From NCBI GenBank assembly GCA_005888745.1, contig VBBS01000039.1:1-51858 (forward strand): DNA of 51,858 bases, written 5' to 3'. Shown here one piece after another: positions 1 to 17,265 of the stretch. Every line of letters begins with the position of its first letter. Position 1 is the first letter of the stretch. The stretch comes from Candidatus Bathyarchaeota archaeon. Its GTDB lineage: Archaea > Thermoproteota > Bathyarchaeia > 40CM-2-53-6. The notes below the pieces were generated by a model. That model saw only the letters and a program-made list of their open reading frames with translations. It was not told where the DNA came from and searched no databases. A program made the translations under genes and the position numbers.

Positions 1-120
1 ACCCAGCGAAGACTATGGTGTCCACACTGTGGAGCCATACTAGACAGGGACGAGAACGCGGCCAGGAACATAGCTGCGGGAGGGCTGAGGTTCAGCCCCA
101 ACTTGCCTCCAGATGAAGCA
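1..120 (+). repeat. Inverted repeat arm A (TnpB copy)
   Basis: 120 bases identical in inverted orientation to 5862-5981. The match continues to the window edge, so the true repeat is probably longer. It results from two copies of the same transposon family in opposite orientation. Confidence 0.95.
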
Positions 121-306
121 GTGAAGGGGAACCCGACGACGACGGTAATCCTCAGAGTCGATGGAGGCAAGTTAAGTCAGCGATCAACAAAGAGCAGCAT
201 TGGCCAACACTTGCGACTTAACAGAACCGAAAGAGCTAAGGTGTCATCCTCCTCCCCCCAAAACGCGCTCGGTTCAACATCATGGAAGGAGGTATTGGTA
301 GACTAG
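1..306 (+). CDS. tnpB: TnpB (IS200/IS605) C-terminal fragment, cut by window edge
   Basis: The reading frame is open from base 1, so the gene starts outside the window. It begins inside the TnpB zinc ribbon (CPHC at codons 7-10), followed by LDRDENAARN, which holds the last catalytic Asp of the RuvC-like nuclease. TnpB is an RNA-guided endonuclease of IS200/IS605 elements; its 3' end also encodes its omegaRNA. The first 120 bases are identical to the complement of 5862-5981, inside the intact tnpB. The two copies then diverge but share TGGAGGCAAGTTAAGTCA (161-178). The frame continues to a stop at 304-306, probably through flanking DNA beyond the element's right end. Family assignment is firm; whether the whole gene is intact cannot be seen. 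Confidence 0.85.
   Translation, partial: TQRRLWCPHCGAILDRDENAARNIAAGGLRFSPNLPPDEAVKGNPTTTVILRVDGGKLSQRSTKSSIGQHLRLNRTERAKVSSSSPQNALGSTSWKEVLVD
82..178 (+). ncRNA. Putative omegaRNA 3' hairpins / right end of TnpB copy 1
   Basis: Two hairpins lie inside the tnpB 3' end. The first is GGGCTGA (82-88), loop GGT, TCAGCCC (92-98). The second is an 11-bp perfect stem, ACTTGCCTCCA (101-111) with TGGAGGCAAGT (162-172), closing a 50-nt loop. Similarity to the intact element ends at TTAAGTCA (171-178), taken here as the right end. In this family the omegaRNA covers the tnpB 3' end and the right end, and the guide is the flanking sequence just beyond; here that would begin GCGATCAACAAAG. The hairpins are seen directly; the RNA role is inferred from the family. 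Confidence 0.55.
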
Positions 307-5714: not shown

Positions 5715-5741
5715 CTACTCTAGTCTGGCCGCGAAGCATTT

Positions 5742-6980
5742 TCAGGTTCTGTTAGTCTTCAAGAGATGGTTAACGTTGTCAACCATAGGTTGTTGACTTA
5801 ACTTGCCTCCATCGACTTTGAGGATTAGGGTCGCGTTCTCCGGTTCCCGTTCTTCTACCATTGCTTCATCTGGAGGCAAGTTGGGGCTGAACCTCAGCCC
5901 TCCCGCAGCTATGTTCCTGGCCGCGTTCTCGTCCCTGTCTAGTATGGCTCCACAGTGTGGACACCATAGTCTTCGCTGGGTGCTCTCTAGGGTCTTGTAC
6001 CCGCATATTGAGCACCGCTTGGAGGTATCTCTAGCAGGAACGTAGATTACCTTCACTCCATCCCATCGAGCCTTGTACTCTACTTGTCGCTGTAGCTCTC
6101 CATAACTGCAACTGTTCATCTTCGCTCGGTACCTTCTAGATTGTCCGTTGCCCCTACGATAGAGTCTTCTCATCCCGGTCAGCCTCTCCATTACTATTCC
6201 ATACCGACCGGTCTTGGCCTCGTCAACTATTCTCTTGGAGACATTGTGGAGTAGCGGCTGTACCCGGTTCCGCTGCTTCTCCCCATACTTGGAGAAGACC
6301 CGCGTTCTCATTCGCTCATCGTTTCTCTTGCACCGGCTTTTGACATAACGATAGCCGGACTTGATTCTGGTCGCCTGTGACAGGTCAAATGTTCGCACTG
6401 TCTTGTTTGTTGCGGTAGTCACATTGTCCAGGATACGGTCTACACCAATGTATCCTTCCGGCTCGATTTCGACGGTCTCTTTGGAGTAGCTTATGCTTAG
6501 AGAGGCCGGGGTCAGCGTGACCGAGCGAACGTTTAGCCCTGAGAGAACCTTGAGCGTGTGACTGTTGAGCTTGAGATAGACGAATTTTCGTGGTTTGACC
6601 GGTAGCCTGAGAAGATTGTCATCTATCTTGAACCCATAGCAGCTGGTTAGCACCAGTCTTTTGGCATATGGAAGCTTTGTCCGGGCGTTCCTTCTCTCGG
6701 CCTTTCGGTAGTTGCGGATTATTACCGTGGCTGCGCCGATCGCTCCGAGCCTATAGTAGCCAAGCATGTCACGGCTAAGACGCGAGTAGGCTCTGGAGGA
6801 GAGAGTCCTGAGAGACGAGACTTTTTGTTCGATTCCAATCATTATGCAGACGTTTACCATGCGTCTGAACTCGTCCAGGAGCCATAGGAGATCAGCTGAA
6901 GTCTGATATTGCTGTCTGACCGTCTTGACTGCCAGCAATGGCAACTCGACACTGGGGCCCGTCTTCAATTGATAACTCAT
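5742..6980 (-). CDS. tnpB: TnpB RNA-guided nuclease (IS200/IS605 family)
   Basis: A 412-residue full-length TnpB. The RuvC-like catalytic triad appears intact: Asp in YIGVDR, Glu in IVMERLTG and Asp in LDRDENAARN. The zinc ribbon has CSIC and CPHC. The N-terminal half contains the helical RNA/DNA-recognition region. No tnpA (Y1 transposase) is nearby, so movement would require TnpA in trans. The frame extends about 17 codons beyond the inferred right end (5794), so the C-terminal tail comes from flanking DNA. TnpB proteins cut DNA matching an omegaRNA guide and help retain the element. Confidence 0.95.
   Translation of the reverse strand: MSYQLKTGPSVELPLLAVKTVRQQYQTSADLLWLLDEFRRMVNVCIMIGIEQKVSSLRTLSSRAYSRLSRDMLGYYRLGAIGAATVIIRNYRKAERRNARTKLPYAKRLVLTSCYGFKIDDNLLRLPVKPRKFVYLKLNSHTLKVLSGLNVRSVTLTPASLSISYSKETVEIEPEGYIGVDRILDNVTTATNKTVRTFDLSQATRIKSGYRYVKSRCKRNDERMRTRVFSKYGEKQRNRVQPLLHNVSKRIVDEAKTGRYGIVMERLTGMRRLYRRGNGQSRRYRAKMNSCSYGELQRQVEYKARWDGVKVIYVPARDTSKRCSICGYKTLESTQRRLWCPHCGAILDRDENAARNIAAGGLRFSPNLPPDEAMVEEREPENATLILKVDGGKLSQQPMVDNVNHLLKTNRT
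5794..5900 (-). ncRNA. Putative omegaRNA 3' hairpins / right end of intact TnpB element
   Basis: On the minus strand a 7-bp hairpin (GGGCTGA/TCAGCCC, 5900-5884) is followed by the 11-bp stem ACTTGCCTCCA/TGGAGGCAAGT (5881-5871 and 5811-5801) and the shared terminal TTAAGTCA ending at 5794. The loop is 59 nt, against 50 nt in the other two copies. The candidate guide beyond the end begins ACAACCTATGG on the minus strand. The RNA role follows from the family; boundaries are inferred from copy comparison. Confidence 0.55.
5862..5981 (-). repeat. Inverted repeat arm B (TnpB copy)
   Basis: Exact reverse complement of bases 1-120. Identity stops at 5861, within the loop of the right-end hairpin, although the closing stem and the terminal TTAAGTCA are again identical between copies. 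Homologous recombination between the arms would invert the block lying between them. Confidence 0.95.
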
Positions 6981-7106
6981 AGAGGAGCCAGGACAACAGT
7001 ATTAGAGGGCAGCTTACAAGTGATCGCAACACCCCACAGAGTTAACAGAGAGCATTTTCAGAAGAATTAAATCCGGTGACCAGTCTGCCGTGGGAATGAG
7101 ACAGCC

Positions 7107-14210: not shown

Positions 14211-16049
14211 CTATGCCTCGAACTTGTACCTGTCCGCCTTCCGCAGTAGACGCCTCCAGACCATGCGGTTAATGATGAGGACTGTTGCGGTCATGACGAG
14301 AAGAGATGCGTAGATCTCAACAGTTGCGAGTGCAGGGTCCTTTGATGAGGCTTGAACTAGAAAGGAGCCCAGCCCGGGGACATTAGCGTTGGGCCCGATG
14401 TATTCAGAGACTATGAGAGCATTCCAGCCTCCGCCCCAGGCCTGTATGCTTCCAATGAGGATGGCGGGAAAAGAAGCTGGAATGAGGATCTCTTTGACAA
14501 ACCGTCGTCCGCGAATTCGATAAGCTGTTGTCGCTTCCAATATGTCATTCGGGACACCGTTTACCGCACCAACGATGTTGAACAGCAAATACCACTGCAT
14601 ACCAGTGAGAATTAAGAGCACTGAAGCTAGGTTCAATGTGAACCCTAGATAGGGGGAGTTTTTGAACGGATTAACAAGCAGTATTACGACAAGTGGGAAG
14701 AGGGCTGTCGCGGGGATAGATTGTCCGATGTCGAAGATAGGGACGAGTAGCCTGGACAGTCTCTGACTTCTCGCTATCAATATTCCAGCACCGAGGGTCC
14801 ACGAGAGGGCAATCGCGTAGGCAATAACCAACCTCGATAACGATAGAACAGTAATTGCGACAAGCCCGAAACCTGTTACATCAGTCGCAAGCAGAGAAAT
14901 TCCGCTCTCAATGGATTGGGACCGCGACATAATCGTGACGATAAGGCCCAAGATAACTAGTCCAACGAATATCGCGTAGCTGAGGAGCCTTCCCCATAAC
15001 GGTATTCTAGAGATCCGTTCTGGGAACCTCAACCTCTCTGTTATGTGGCGTATTCGTTTCAGACGAGTGATTTCCAGAACTCGTCCCGCGTAGGACCGTT
15101 CAGACTTGAAGAACGTAAGTACCGGGGAAACGAGACGGTCCTCATATCTTCTCACACCAGCAACTACAGAACTCTGCCGCGTTGCAGTTGTCCTGGGAGC
15201 GGCAACTGTTTCGTATTTGTATTTTTCCGCCCTCGTTCCCAGGGGCTTCCATATCAAACGGTCAATCGCTAGTATGATGCCCACAAGTACTACGAGTCCA
15301 AAGAGCGCCAATCCTAGGTCCGCTTTCAACGCGGCCAACGCGATATACCTGCCTATTCCTGGCAGGTCCACCTGAGTCTGATTTGGAGGAGATCCGAAGG
15401 CCAGGTGCTCCTCGACCGGTATTAGGTACCAGCCTCCGCCCCATGCAAGAATGCTGCTCCAAACTAGTTCTGGGAATACCGCCGGAAGAACGATCTGGCG
15501 CAGGTACTTGGCGCCGTGCATTCCGTAGGCATGAGCCGCCTCTTTGATGTCTGTCGGGATCGCGTTTATTCCTGCAATAACCCCGAACGTAGGTGCCCAG
15601 GCCATAGCTGTGAAGATCAGTATGATCGAAGCAACTTCTTGGTTGAATACAGGGGGATTGGCTCCCGTTCCCAAGATGATCAGGAATACTACTGGTACCA
15701 CTCCAAGAACAGGTACCGACTGGAAGATGTCGAGCAAGGGTAAGAGCACGTGCGAGGCGCGATGGCTCATCGCTGTCGCGATTCCATATGTCAATGCAAA
15801 GCCGAGAGCAAAAGCGTAGGCAATTGTCATTCGGGTAAGAGTTCGAATAGCATACCCAGGAATACACAACGGGTCTAGAGGATTATTCTGACAGTTCGGA
15901 GTTAGCCCGCCGGTCAGTAGATCGATTATCAAAGCACCTATCGTTACAACAGCGATTGCGCTAAGGAATATCTTGGTGAAAAGAGAGGCTGTTTTCCCGG
16001 CCGAGGCCGTGGTTACGCGTTTTCTAAGGCTCGGCCTTGGCACATGCAA
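14211..16049 (-). CDS. NitT/TauT-type ABC importer, fused double permease
   Basis: 612 residues, two BPD_transp_1 permease domains in tandem. Each has the EAA loop (DIKEAAHAYGMHGAKYLRQI and DILEATTAYRIRGRRFVKEI) and each half ends in a similar amphipathic tail (RAEKYKYE and KADRYKFE), pointing to an internal duplication. About twelve TM helices are predicted. The partner ATPase follows; no substrate-binding protein is seen in the window. The upstream region (16050 onward) also holds an outward-facing TATA box for a putative RNA. Confidence 0.92.
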   Translation of the reverse strand: MHVPRPSLRKRVTTASAGKTASLFTKIFLSAIAVVTIGALIIDLLTGGLTPNCQNNPLDPLCIPGYAIRTLTRMTIAYAFALGFALTYGIATAMSHRASHVLLPLLDIFQSVPVLGVVPVVFLIILGTGANPPVFNQEVASIILIFTAMAWAPTFGVIAGINAIPTDIKEAAHAYGMHGAKYLRQIVLPAVFPELVWSSILAWGGGWYLIPVEEHLAFGSPPNQTQVDLPGIGRYIALAALKADLGLALFGLVVLVGIILAIDRLIWKPLGTRAEKYKYETVAAPRTTATRQSSVVAGVRRYEDRLVSPVLTFFKSERSYAGRVLEITRLKRIRHITERLRFPERISRIPLWGRLLSYAIFVGLVILGLIVTIMSRSQSIESGISLLATDVTGFGLVAITVLSLSRLVIAYAIALSWTLGAGILIARSQRLSRLLVPIFDIGQSIPATALFPLVVILLVNPFKNSPYLGFTLNLASVLLILTGMQWYLLFNIVGAVNGVPNDILEATTAYRIRGRRFVKEILIPASFPAILIGSIQAWGGGWNALIVSEYIGPNANVPGLGSFLVQASSKDPALATVEIYASLLVMTATVLIINRMVWRRLLRKADRYKFEA

Positions 16050-16097
16050 AATGAACCCTATCCGATATTCTTAGAAAAACGGACGAGTGCGTCTCGT

Positions 16098-16106
16098 TAT
16101 AAAAGG
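16098..16106 (+). promoter_or_regulatory. TATA box ahead of omegaRNA-like locus
   Basis: TTATAAAAG on the plus strand, a good archaeal TATA match. Transcription would start about 25-30 bases downstream, near 16128-16135, and read into the structured region 16200-16460. No protein gene follows on this strand before the antisense tRNA, so the likely product is an RNA. Confidence 0.4.
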
Positions 16107-16199
16107 GGGTACCATGCTTCTCATTGTCATTTGATAGTACCTTCAATCATCTCTCTGTTATGTTAGGTGAATGACTCGTTAGTTGTAGGGGCACTCGTC

Positions 16200-16460
16200 G
16201 GATGAGCCTGTCACGTTGGGATGAGGGGAGTGAGTCCGACCACCTGACGGGTCTGTGGGATAACCGGTTGGTTGGCCCACCGTAAAATCCCTGCATGGCA
16301 ATGGCCAAGCTACCAGCTACAGGCGTGAGGGTGCGGTTGAGGTTCGACCGTTCACTGCCGAAAAGAGACTATGCGTCTCTGAGGCGCAAGGGCTCTCAGG
16401 TGAGGCAGTGAAGAGGAACCCGCCGACGACGGTAATCCCCAGGGTCGATGAGAGCAAGTC
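16200..16460 (+). ncRNA. Stand-alone omegaRNA-like relic of a TnpB element
   Basis: Bases 16392-16460 align with the tnpB 3' end at 105-173 and in broken frame encode EAVKRNPPTTVIPRVDESK. An earlier stretch (about 16242-16330) still suggests a TnpB zinc ribbon (VCG, HRK) but has stops and frameshifts. RNA structure is better kept: hairpin CGGTTGA/TCGACCG (16334-16350) with loop GGT, a local hairpin AGAGAC/GTCTCT (16364-16380), and stem GCTCTCA/TGAGAGC (16392-16398 with 16449-16455) with a 50-nt loop. Against 105-111/162-168, this stem differs by three compensatory pair changes. It may be an expressed guide RNA or simply a dead remnant. Confidence 0.5.
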
Positions 16461-16577
16461 GAGCCCTCGAACAATCGAACGCAAGAGAGAACCAAAGGGC
16501 AACCAGACTCAATGGTTCAAACAGGGCTTCTCCGTCTCTTTCGTAGAGCTATTCAAGGCAGCCGGGAATTTTGTTGA

Positions 16578-16720
16578 TGGTGGGGCCGGTGGGATTTGAA
16601 CCCACGACCTCTGGCCCCGATTTCTCGGGGTCGCCAGCGCCCCAGGGTCACCGTCCAAGATTGGACTCTGGTATCCTCTGGGCGGGGTCAATCCCCTTGA
16701 CCAAGCTAGACGACGGCCCC
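16578..16720 (-). tRNA. Intron-containing tRNA, probably tRNA-Pro(CGG)
   Basis: On the minus strand the acceptor arms GGGGCCG and CGGCCCC pair perfectly around 140 bases. The T arm is GTGGG TTCAAAT CCCAC, the D arm starts GTCTAGCTTGGT, and a CCA is encoded at 16580-16578. About 65 bases exceed a mature tRNA, so introns are required. Anticodon-stem candidates are CTGG(C) and (G)CCAG; the only U33-like position reads T-CGG-G, giving anticodon CGG (proline), consistent with the G-rich acceptor. One intron appears to lie near the D-arm/anticodon-arm boundary and another before position 33, both non-canonical. Identity and splice sites are uncertain. Confidence 0.7.
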
Positions 16721-16806
16721 TGAGTTTGGAATCGAATCGGGCTGCTTTTCTGTGTTATGCTCAGCGCTTGTCAGATGAATGACGGTTACCCTTCGAGAGA
16801 ATTGAT

Positions 16807-17265
16807 CTATTGAGACGCGGGAATAGTCATCCGCATAACCGTCTCTTCGACTGGATAGCCTTCTTTTCTCCAGCCTTCCATGCCATCGAGCATCTCCTTC
16901 ACTCTGAAGCCGAGAGCCGTCAGTTTCGCGGCTGCCTTGGTGGAGGCGTTGCAGAAGACTCCGTCGCAATAAGTTACGATGACCTTGTCTCGGGGCAAGG
17001 AAGCGGTCGTGGAAGAGTCGATGGCTCGGTGGGGTATGTTGACGGCTCCCGGAACGTGTCCTCTTGCGTAGGTTTCAGGGGTTCTTGCGTCTAGCACGAC
17101 TATTCTGAAGATCTTGTTTGTGATATCGTGGTAAACGTCTGAGGGGTCAGTTTCGAACGAGAGCTTTGATTGGAAGTGATTCTCGGCGACCGAGGGGTCA
17201 GCCGGTGGGTTTTCCAGTACTTTGGAGGTCCGTTGAGTAAGTGATTCATTCGCGCGATCTGACAT
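16807..17265 (-). CDS. Rhodanese-like domain protein
   Basis: 152 residues with one rhodanese domain: VVLDARTPETYARGHVPGAV, then the active-site loop VTYCDGVFCNAS and LDGMEGWRKEGYPV. The Cys in TYCDG is the expected persulfide-carrying residue. Such proteins transfer sulfur or serve redox roles in the cytosol; the specific partner is unknown. The N-terminal 45 residues are polar and unconserved in appearance. It follows a membrane-protein gene after seven bases and may share its transcript. Confidence 0.9.
   Translation of the reverse strand: MSDRANESLTQRTSKVLENPPADPSVAENHFQSKLSFETDPSDVYHDITNKIFRIVVLDARTPETYARGHVPGAVNIPHRAIDSSTTASLPRDKVIVTYCDGVFCNASTKAAAKLTALGFRVKEMLDGMEGWRKEGYPVEETVMRMTIPASQ

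Follow-up and report, generated by a model that had tools for sequence, protein, structure and literature searches.

What kind of genetic unit is a short stretch of archaeal DNA which resembles the 3' end of a tnpB gene, has no intact protein frame and can be folded into several hairpins? The question is raised by a locus in the window analysed here, a stretch of 51,858 nucleotides from contig VBBS01000039.1 of a Candidatus Bathyarchaeota archaeon (assembly GCA_005888745.1). The original prediction described a TnpB-less, omegaRNA-like locus with its own TATA box and considered it as a possible domesticated guide RNA acting with a TnpB in trans. Much of the structural description was borne out. 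The locus is related to the tnpB 3' end at 105-173, its protein frame is broken, with no open reading frame of at least 80 amino acids crossing it, hairpin 2 was confirmed, and the main stem with its loop of 50 nt matches that of copy 1 near the beginning of the window (GCCTCCA/TGGAGGC, 105-111/162-168, loop 50). A third hairpin is also present, but it is not unique to the locus as had been thought, since it was found in most TnpB-less copies of the family described below; shorter hairpins can be drawn at this position in many tnpB copies. The features of the window are listed in Table 1.

Table 1. Features of the window related to the TnpB-less element
Feature	Position	Strand	Remarks
3' part of another tnpB copy with right end	1..228	+	cut by contig edge
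Complete tnpB-bearing relative with terminal inverted repeats	5745..7052	-	8-bp duplication TGAAAATG at 7053-7060 and 5737-5744, preceded by TTC
tnpB, 412 aa	5742..6980	-	related to ISDra2 TnpB (8bf8, E 1.1e-13)
TTA, TAM-like motif in host flank, directly 5' of the target duplication	16097..16099	+
8-bp target-site duplication, left copy, TAAAAGGG	16100..16107	+	single in seven empty sites
TnpB-less element, decayed copy, 386 bp	16108..16493	+	family alignment and empty sites
Left terminal inverted repeat, strongly decayed in this copy	16108..16137	+	no match to the terminal repeat pattern; 0.37 identity
Hairpin 2, CGGTTGA-GGT-TCGACCG	16334..16350	+	helix 1; 97.0% of cells paired
Hairpin 3, AGAGAC-TATGC-GTCTCT, length-variable	16364..16380	+	helix 6; double changes in 4 of 6 pairs (49 copies)
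Main stem, 5' strand, GCTCTCA	16392..16398	+	helix 3; both-side changes at 5 of 7 pairs
Main stem, 3' strand, TGAGAGC	16449..16455	+	helix 3
Right end with terminal hairpin	16456..16493	+	family CAAGTC/GACTTG; here CGAGCC/CGCAAG, 3 of 6 pairs left
Right target duplication AAAGGG, six-base remnant of TAAAAGGG	16494..16499	+	expected guide start

When the genome to which the window belongs (2.2 Mb in 75 contigs) was searched with positions 16050-16560, at least 41 matches were obtained, the window included, 40 of 55 candidates having been scored. At least 28 other places match over 120 bases or more; the TnpB-less element is about 390 bp long. Ten of the shorter matches were inspected and turned out to be 3' ends of tnpB, tnpB elements with deletions and, in one case (L036), a diverged TnpB-less copy. 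Matches to the family were detected in 13 out of 101 genomes, that of the window among them: 12 of the 18 genomes of the genus and one of a sister genus. A 19-base piece of hairpin 2 is contained in 60 stretches of named genomes, one from Opitutia and one from Candidatus Methanomethylicota, the others being MAGs named Bathyarchaeota, Crenarchaeota, Thaumarchaeota or archaeon, many with sample names that look like soil depths; no exact match to this piece was present in viral contigs.

The aligned copies have a common left end, GGCACTGTCAACTCTTCGGTTG, and a common right end, CAACCGAAGACTTGACAGAACC, which form inverted repeats of about 20 bp, and ends of the same kind (GGTTCTGTTAACTCTTCGTCGG) delimit the tnpB-bearing elements, mostly 1273-1279 bp in size. 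The end pattern produced 72 matches in the genome and none with the reversed control. Among 49 TnpB-less copies with both ends, 19 are flanked by a perfect 8-bp duplication and six more by one identical at 7 of 8 bases; either end could be moved by as many as 4 bases, which 17 of the 19 did not need, and a few copies share a site. Perfect duplications were also found for seven of the 19 tnpB-type elements readable at both ends, for L045 and L201, and for the complete tnpB element of the window. A second TnpB-less subfamily of 292-363 bp with like ends (L172, L160, L200, L194, L066, L192, L177, L148), most members having the RNA fold, shows perfect duplications in seven of eight cases, although its ends were picked by inverted-repeat identity alone. 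This search covered 22 loci, one more being too near a contig end, and nine of the 22, from other lineages or copies, had no convincing left end. In the MAG named Candidatus Methanomethylicota (L169), a 395-bp element with a weaker repeat (14/20) follows TTA and a perfect duplication, CGGAAAAT.

The site of the window copy could be read in 10 of the 18 genus genomes, three being occupied and seven empty; in G004, about 975 bp lie between the flanks. Empty sites read GTTATAAAAGGGCAACC or a close variant (G014 has one G fewer, G005 differs after GGGCA, and one site has TAAAAGG). In the occupied genome G013, TAAAAGAG is located to the left and TAAAAGGG to the right of the element, while in G015 TAAAAGGG is present on both sides, as seen on two contigs. 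These comparisons also account for the TATA box attributed to the locus. The proposed box consists of the TTA and the left duplication listed in Table 1, and TTATAAAAGG occurs in all seven empty sites read, six of which have TTATAAAAGGG. It is host flank plus target duplication, and it is older than the insertion. The conserved sequence TTTTATAA (16097-16107, minus strand) is situated upstream of a gene on the minus strand, 14211-16049, and may be the promoter of that gene; the promoter-like sequence has been preserved by the duplication made on insertion.

Single-copy empty sites together with 8-bp duplications point to a DDE-like mechanism, and suggest that TnpB-less and tnpB-bearing copies alike are moved in this way by a transposase whose existence we infer. 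Inverted repeats and duplications are both missing in elements of the IS200/IS605 and IS607 types and both present here. Short size, no genes, terminal inverted repeats, target duplications and many copies are what is found in MITEs. The end repeats, written GGYWCTGTYAACT, presumably resemble those of the IS6 family; IS6/IS26 elements have terminal repeats starting with GGTTCTGTT/GGCACTGTT and generate 8-bp duplications. Start of the repeat and length of the duplication seem alike, but an IS6-type transposase with the ends of the family was not found.

The predicted fold, including its compensatory changes, was supported by comparison. Across 44 right ends (12 from elements of the 390-bp kind, the window copy among them, and 32 from tnpB-type or other elements), four helices were paired in 93.2% of 948 cells, with 174 double-change cells. 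The covariation score was 0.375, compared with 0.126 +/- 0.009 in shuffled alignments and 0.04-0.09 in slid controls. Main stems occur as GCTCTCA/TGAGAGC, GCCTCCA/TGGAGGC, CGGAGCA/TGCTCCG, CAGAGCA/CGCTCTG and in other forms, and hairpin 2 is represented in relatives by GGGCTGA-GGT-TCAGCCC and CGGGTGA-GGT-TCGCACG. Kinship inflates covariation scores; yet the same pairs switch among GC, UA, CG and AU. The hairpins are real and covary beyond chance. Among the 49 TnpB-less copies alone, covariation is modest: 90.8% of the cells are paired, 89.8% after shuffling, and the score is 0.105 versus 0.088 in shuffles and 0.012-0.055 in slides. In 44 of these copies, mean pairwise identity is 0.874 in the core versus 0.697 in the left arm, and the core is the more similar part in 938 of 946 pairs. 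The rows L029, L034, L036, L178 and L183, which are incomplete, carry internal deletions or have diverged strongly, were omitted from the 49. The RNA part is therefore constrained also in copies without tnpB. Folding the window copy singly by minimum energy gave an unremarkable z value of -1.6, and the main stem was not chosen. RNAalifold applied to whole elements returned a mixed structure that showed little covariation, the TnpB-less copies being too similar to one another; the named helices were counted on the broader alignment instead.

Rfam gave no match inside the element. Three sub-threshold matches in 15900-16900 all fall within 16578-16720, where the minus strand carries a tRNA-like gene, perhaps with one or more introns. 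The Rfam match there is a sub-threshold one to tmRNA, ARAGORN reported none, and positions 16578-16650 are identical in G013 and G015 (73/73).

A further signal was detected outside the elements. In 50 distinct left flanks of TnpB-less copies, the three bases before the duplication are T in 41, T in 34, and A or G in 38 cases. Flanks more than 70% alike were merged, which reduced 50 TnpB-less left flanks to 43, 38 tnpB-type left flanks to 32 and 106 right flanks to 101; for the tnpB type, 40 left ends had been retrieved, two without a readable repeat. TTR stands directly 5' of the duplication in 26 of the 43 independent TnpB-less flanks (about 1.4 expected, P 2e-28) and in 16 of the 32 tnpB-type flanks (about 1.4 expected, P 5e-14). 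It is present at all eight elements of the second subfamily, whereas the only complete tnpB element of the window has TTC before its duplication. The mirror motif YAA follows the duplication in eight of 101 right flanks (other offsets, 1-7). TTR appears TAM-like, since it stands on one side only and shares the orientation of the RNA, as expected of a TAM for TnpB. In front of tnpB-type copies (L234-L272), 15-20 bases upstream of the left end, the flanks contain a TATA-like stretch rich in A and T, with 63-84% A/T per position in 38 flanks, as if nearby host promoters drove tnpB.

In TnpB-omegaRNA systems, the guide begins where the conserved right end stops, and the insertion site has a TAM, according to the available part of PMC11043419. 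The motif is located 5' of the left end also in the present family, but an 8-bp duplication intervenes, and the guide assigned here is deduced from position. Combining these features, we consider it probable that 16108-16493 represents a mini-transposon of Bathyarchaeota-type archaea in decay, one that lacks tnpB and carries an omegaRNA, with DDE-like movement in trans and re-cutting of vacated sites by TnpB. The family would be moved by a DDE-like transposase supplied in trans. Insertion would set the RNA scaffold, which ends in ...AACC, directly against the duplicated target, and the guide would comprise the duplication plus the right flank. If the guide begins behind ...AACC, its seed would be the variable duplication. 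Once an element had left, the rejoined site would read TTR, duplication, flank, that is, a TAM followed by a full match to the guide. TnpB from other copies would cut this rejoined site, and repair off a sister copy would restore the element. Cutting of the vacated site by TnpB and restoration through repair from a sister copy are proposed here by analogy with TnpB biology; production of RNA by TnpB-less copies and its binding by TnpB are steps assumed here. Re-cutting of this kind would explain both the retention of the RNA core in TnpB-less copies and their position 3' of TTR, and most likely it is for re-cutting vacated sites that these copies borrow TnpB.

A rival reading, which we regard as rather unlikely though of some weight, is that of a passive MITE, in which the core is kept as DNA required in cis for transposition, TTR reflects an asymmetric target preference of the mover, and TnpB is not involved. 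The terminal inverted repeats are obvious cis signals, and MITEs ordinarily borrow a transposase only. Among eight elements which have the same ends but neither hairpin 2 nor the 5' strand of the main stem, three are preceded by TTR; one of the three occupies a site in common with tnpB copies and could be a deletion in place. Similarly, L148, which has lost the 5' strand of the main stem and kept hairpin 2, is located behind TTG and a perfect duplication. From such cases TTR could be the target choice of the mover. On the other hand, a covarying fold, even if the covariation is weaker within the TnpB-less copies, is needless for a DNA site. Counted from the right end, the core spans about 200 bp, and its conservation exceeds that of the ends themselves. 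No mirror motif was seen, although targets of DDE transposases are usually symmetric. Finally, the fold-less elements seen in the genome of the window are present at one or two close copies each.

That the window locus is a domesticated guide RNA, regulating or cutting a host target with TnpB in trans, is very improbable. Hairpin 2, hairpin 3 and the main stem are intact despite the decayed left end, and TnpB genes are present in the genome. However, the body shows 0.90 identity to the consensus, and the other copies 0.91, so there is no mark of its being kept for host function. The first 30 bases, by contrast, are 0.37 identical versus a mean of 0.81 in the others, the lowest value of 46, and the last 40 bases 0.80 versus 0.86, the tenth lowest; all figures were measured from the true start in 46 of 50 sequences, four copies of other type being excluded. 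The site is empty in seven congeners, the copies which occupy it in G013 and G015 are of a different lineage, and the promoter-like box is host sequence. A unique domesticated locus was rejected on the number of genome matches, the empty sites and the average conservation of the body; the locus is one among many mobile copies. TldR-like domesticated regulators are conserved stand-alone loci with a nuclease-dead TnpB, in contrast to the empty sites described above and to the TnpB of the window, which retains GVD, ME and DRD (D, E, D motifs, identified by eye), taken here to be the catalytic motifs. The guide start predicted after 16460 falls inside the element, the shared right end extending to 16493. 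As the right duplication is two bases short, a guide beginning behind AACC would no longer be in register with TTA. With its left end decayed, its right hairpin broken and its right duplication shortened, the window copy is probably a mobile element past its working life.

The history of this site appears to be more than a simple single insertion, since in the tree the copies which G013 and G015 have at this position group elsewhere and are not sisters of the window copy. Their identities to it are 0.87 and 0.85 in the core and 0.69 in the right flank; as they are not simple orthologues, this difference was not counted as host selection. The left arm of the window copy is nearest to that of L002, and columns 60-110 are 0.90 identical to L002, the next best value being 0.69. 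Two separate hits at the site, or else an exchange of sequence between copies, must have taken place. G006, whose site is empty, has a left flank nearer to the window (92%) than that of the occupied G013 (0.75), and this flank similarity would also fit two insertions or several precise losses. L016, L173 and L074, from different genomes, occupy one common insertion site with the duplication GGAAAGCA; L016 and L173 belong to different sub-lineages in a tree lacking L074, as expected for repeated insertion or exchange. L048 combines the left flank of the L025 site with the right flank of the L071 site, by recombination of copies or an assembly error.

Hardly credible at all is a PATE-like derivative of the IS200/IS605 type moved by a Y1 transposase, with chance-like duplications: TnpB and the right-end hairpin CAAGTC/GACTTG would suit it, as IS605 right ends carry a hairpin, but inverted repeats, 8-bp duplications, the single-copy empty site and a genome without a Y1 transposase match all speak against it.

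A partnership with TnpB in trans is plausible. The genome contains 19 matches to PF07282, 17 of them above the cut-off, and seven have open frames of 379-457 amino acids. Within the genus, tnpB is present in 11 of 18 genomes, and long TnpB-less copies were found in eight of these 11 and in none of the seven tnpB-negative ones (Fisher P 0.004), but several of the 18 genomes are incomplete and a shared mover would yield the same co-occurrence. The stop codon of the tnpB gene in Table 1 (TGA, 5742-5744, minus strand) lies in the target duplication, outside the element, and the end of the reading frame therefore depends on the insertion site.

Candidates for the mover were searched by profile. PF01797, PF00239 and PF13610 had no match in the genome of the window, which is 93% complete, and PF12762 had none in 18 genomes. 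Among 21 family genomes, PF13610 matched once, without matching ends: an IS6-like transposase of 383 amino acids (L143, G005:C27, 897-2046) with no convincing family ends around it. No obvious transposase was noticed by eye among the open frames beside 12 end loci, and as to an autonomous partner, only tnpB was seen within paired ends in the genome of the window. Mobilisation by a Y1 transposase as in IS200/IS605 was rejected for want of a Y1 TnpA match in this genome, and mobilisation by a serine recombinase as in IS607 likewise, duplications being present in addition. A transposase of IS6 or IS1595 type was not found with family ends either.

Among known systems, the TnpB-omegaRNA (reRNA) of IS200/IS605 elements, for example ISDra2 or Sulfolobus TnpB7, is similar in having a TnpB homologue and a covarying fold at the right end. 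The family differs by its terminal inverted repeats, its 8-bp duplications, the lack of a detectable Y1 transposase and the absence of tnpB from most copies. Prokaryotic elements with only TnpB have neither inverted repeats nor duplications in the available part of the paper by Bao and Jurka (PMC3627910), and the same is stated of IS605-type elements and of the PATEs of Haloquadratum in the corresponding part of the survey PMC3119063. The latter resemble the present elements as high-copy, gene-less archaeal elements, some PATEs deriving from the IS605 type; the MITEs of Haloquadratum, for their part, are relatives of ordinary transposons, and that part of the report (PMC3119063) mentions no guide-RNA fold. 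In the open-access papers searched, no prokaryotic TnpB family with terminal inverted repeats and duplications was found described.

A further likeness is to Fanzor elements, which occur in eukaryotic DDE transposons according to the available parts of PMC3627910 and PMC10711439 and place a TnpB-like nuclease system within a transposon with terminal inverted repeats and target duplications. For Fanzors of such transposons, the duplication belongs to the scaffold, as far as the available text of PMC10711439 goes. The family described here is prokaryotic, and its duplication, being variable and lying directly after TTR, should be the guide seed and would form the first eight nucleotides of the guide, unlike the Fanzor scaffold.

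Ends and landing sites of the family suggest an unexpected pairing of an RNA-guided cutter with cut-and-paste-style movement. Tentatively, though as a real possibility, this may be extended to a prokaryotic transposon family which joins RNA-guided TnpB to DDE-like movement and uses the variable 8-bp duplication of each insertion as guide seed, its gene-less copies being guide RNAs which are mobile, program themselves and have TnpB in common, in trans. If so, the pairing of TnpB with DDE transposition, described in the sources available as a eukaryotic trait of Fanzor, with prokaryotic TnpB assigned to IS200/IS605 and IS607 elements lacking inverted repeats and duplications, would have arisen in prokaryotes too, and the problem of the guide boundary would have been solved differently, with the duplication as seed instead of scaffold. 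The 8-bp spacing would offer a clean way of reading TAMs off genomes. The constrained RNA of TnpB-less copies would be evidence that guide RNAs are able to spread apart from their nuclease, insertion sites throughout the genome would record a TTR TAM, and the gene-less copies would defend their own sites.
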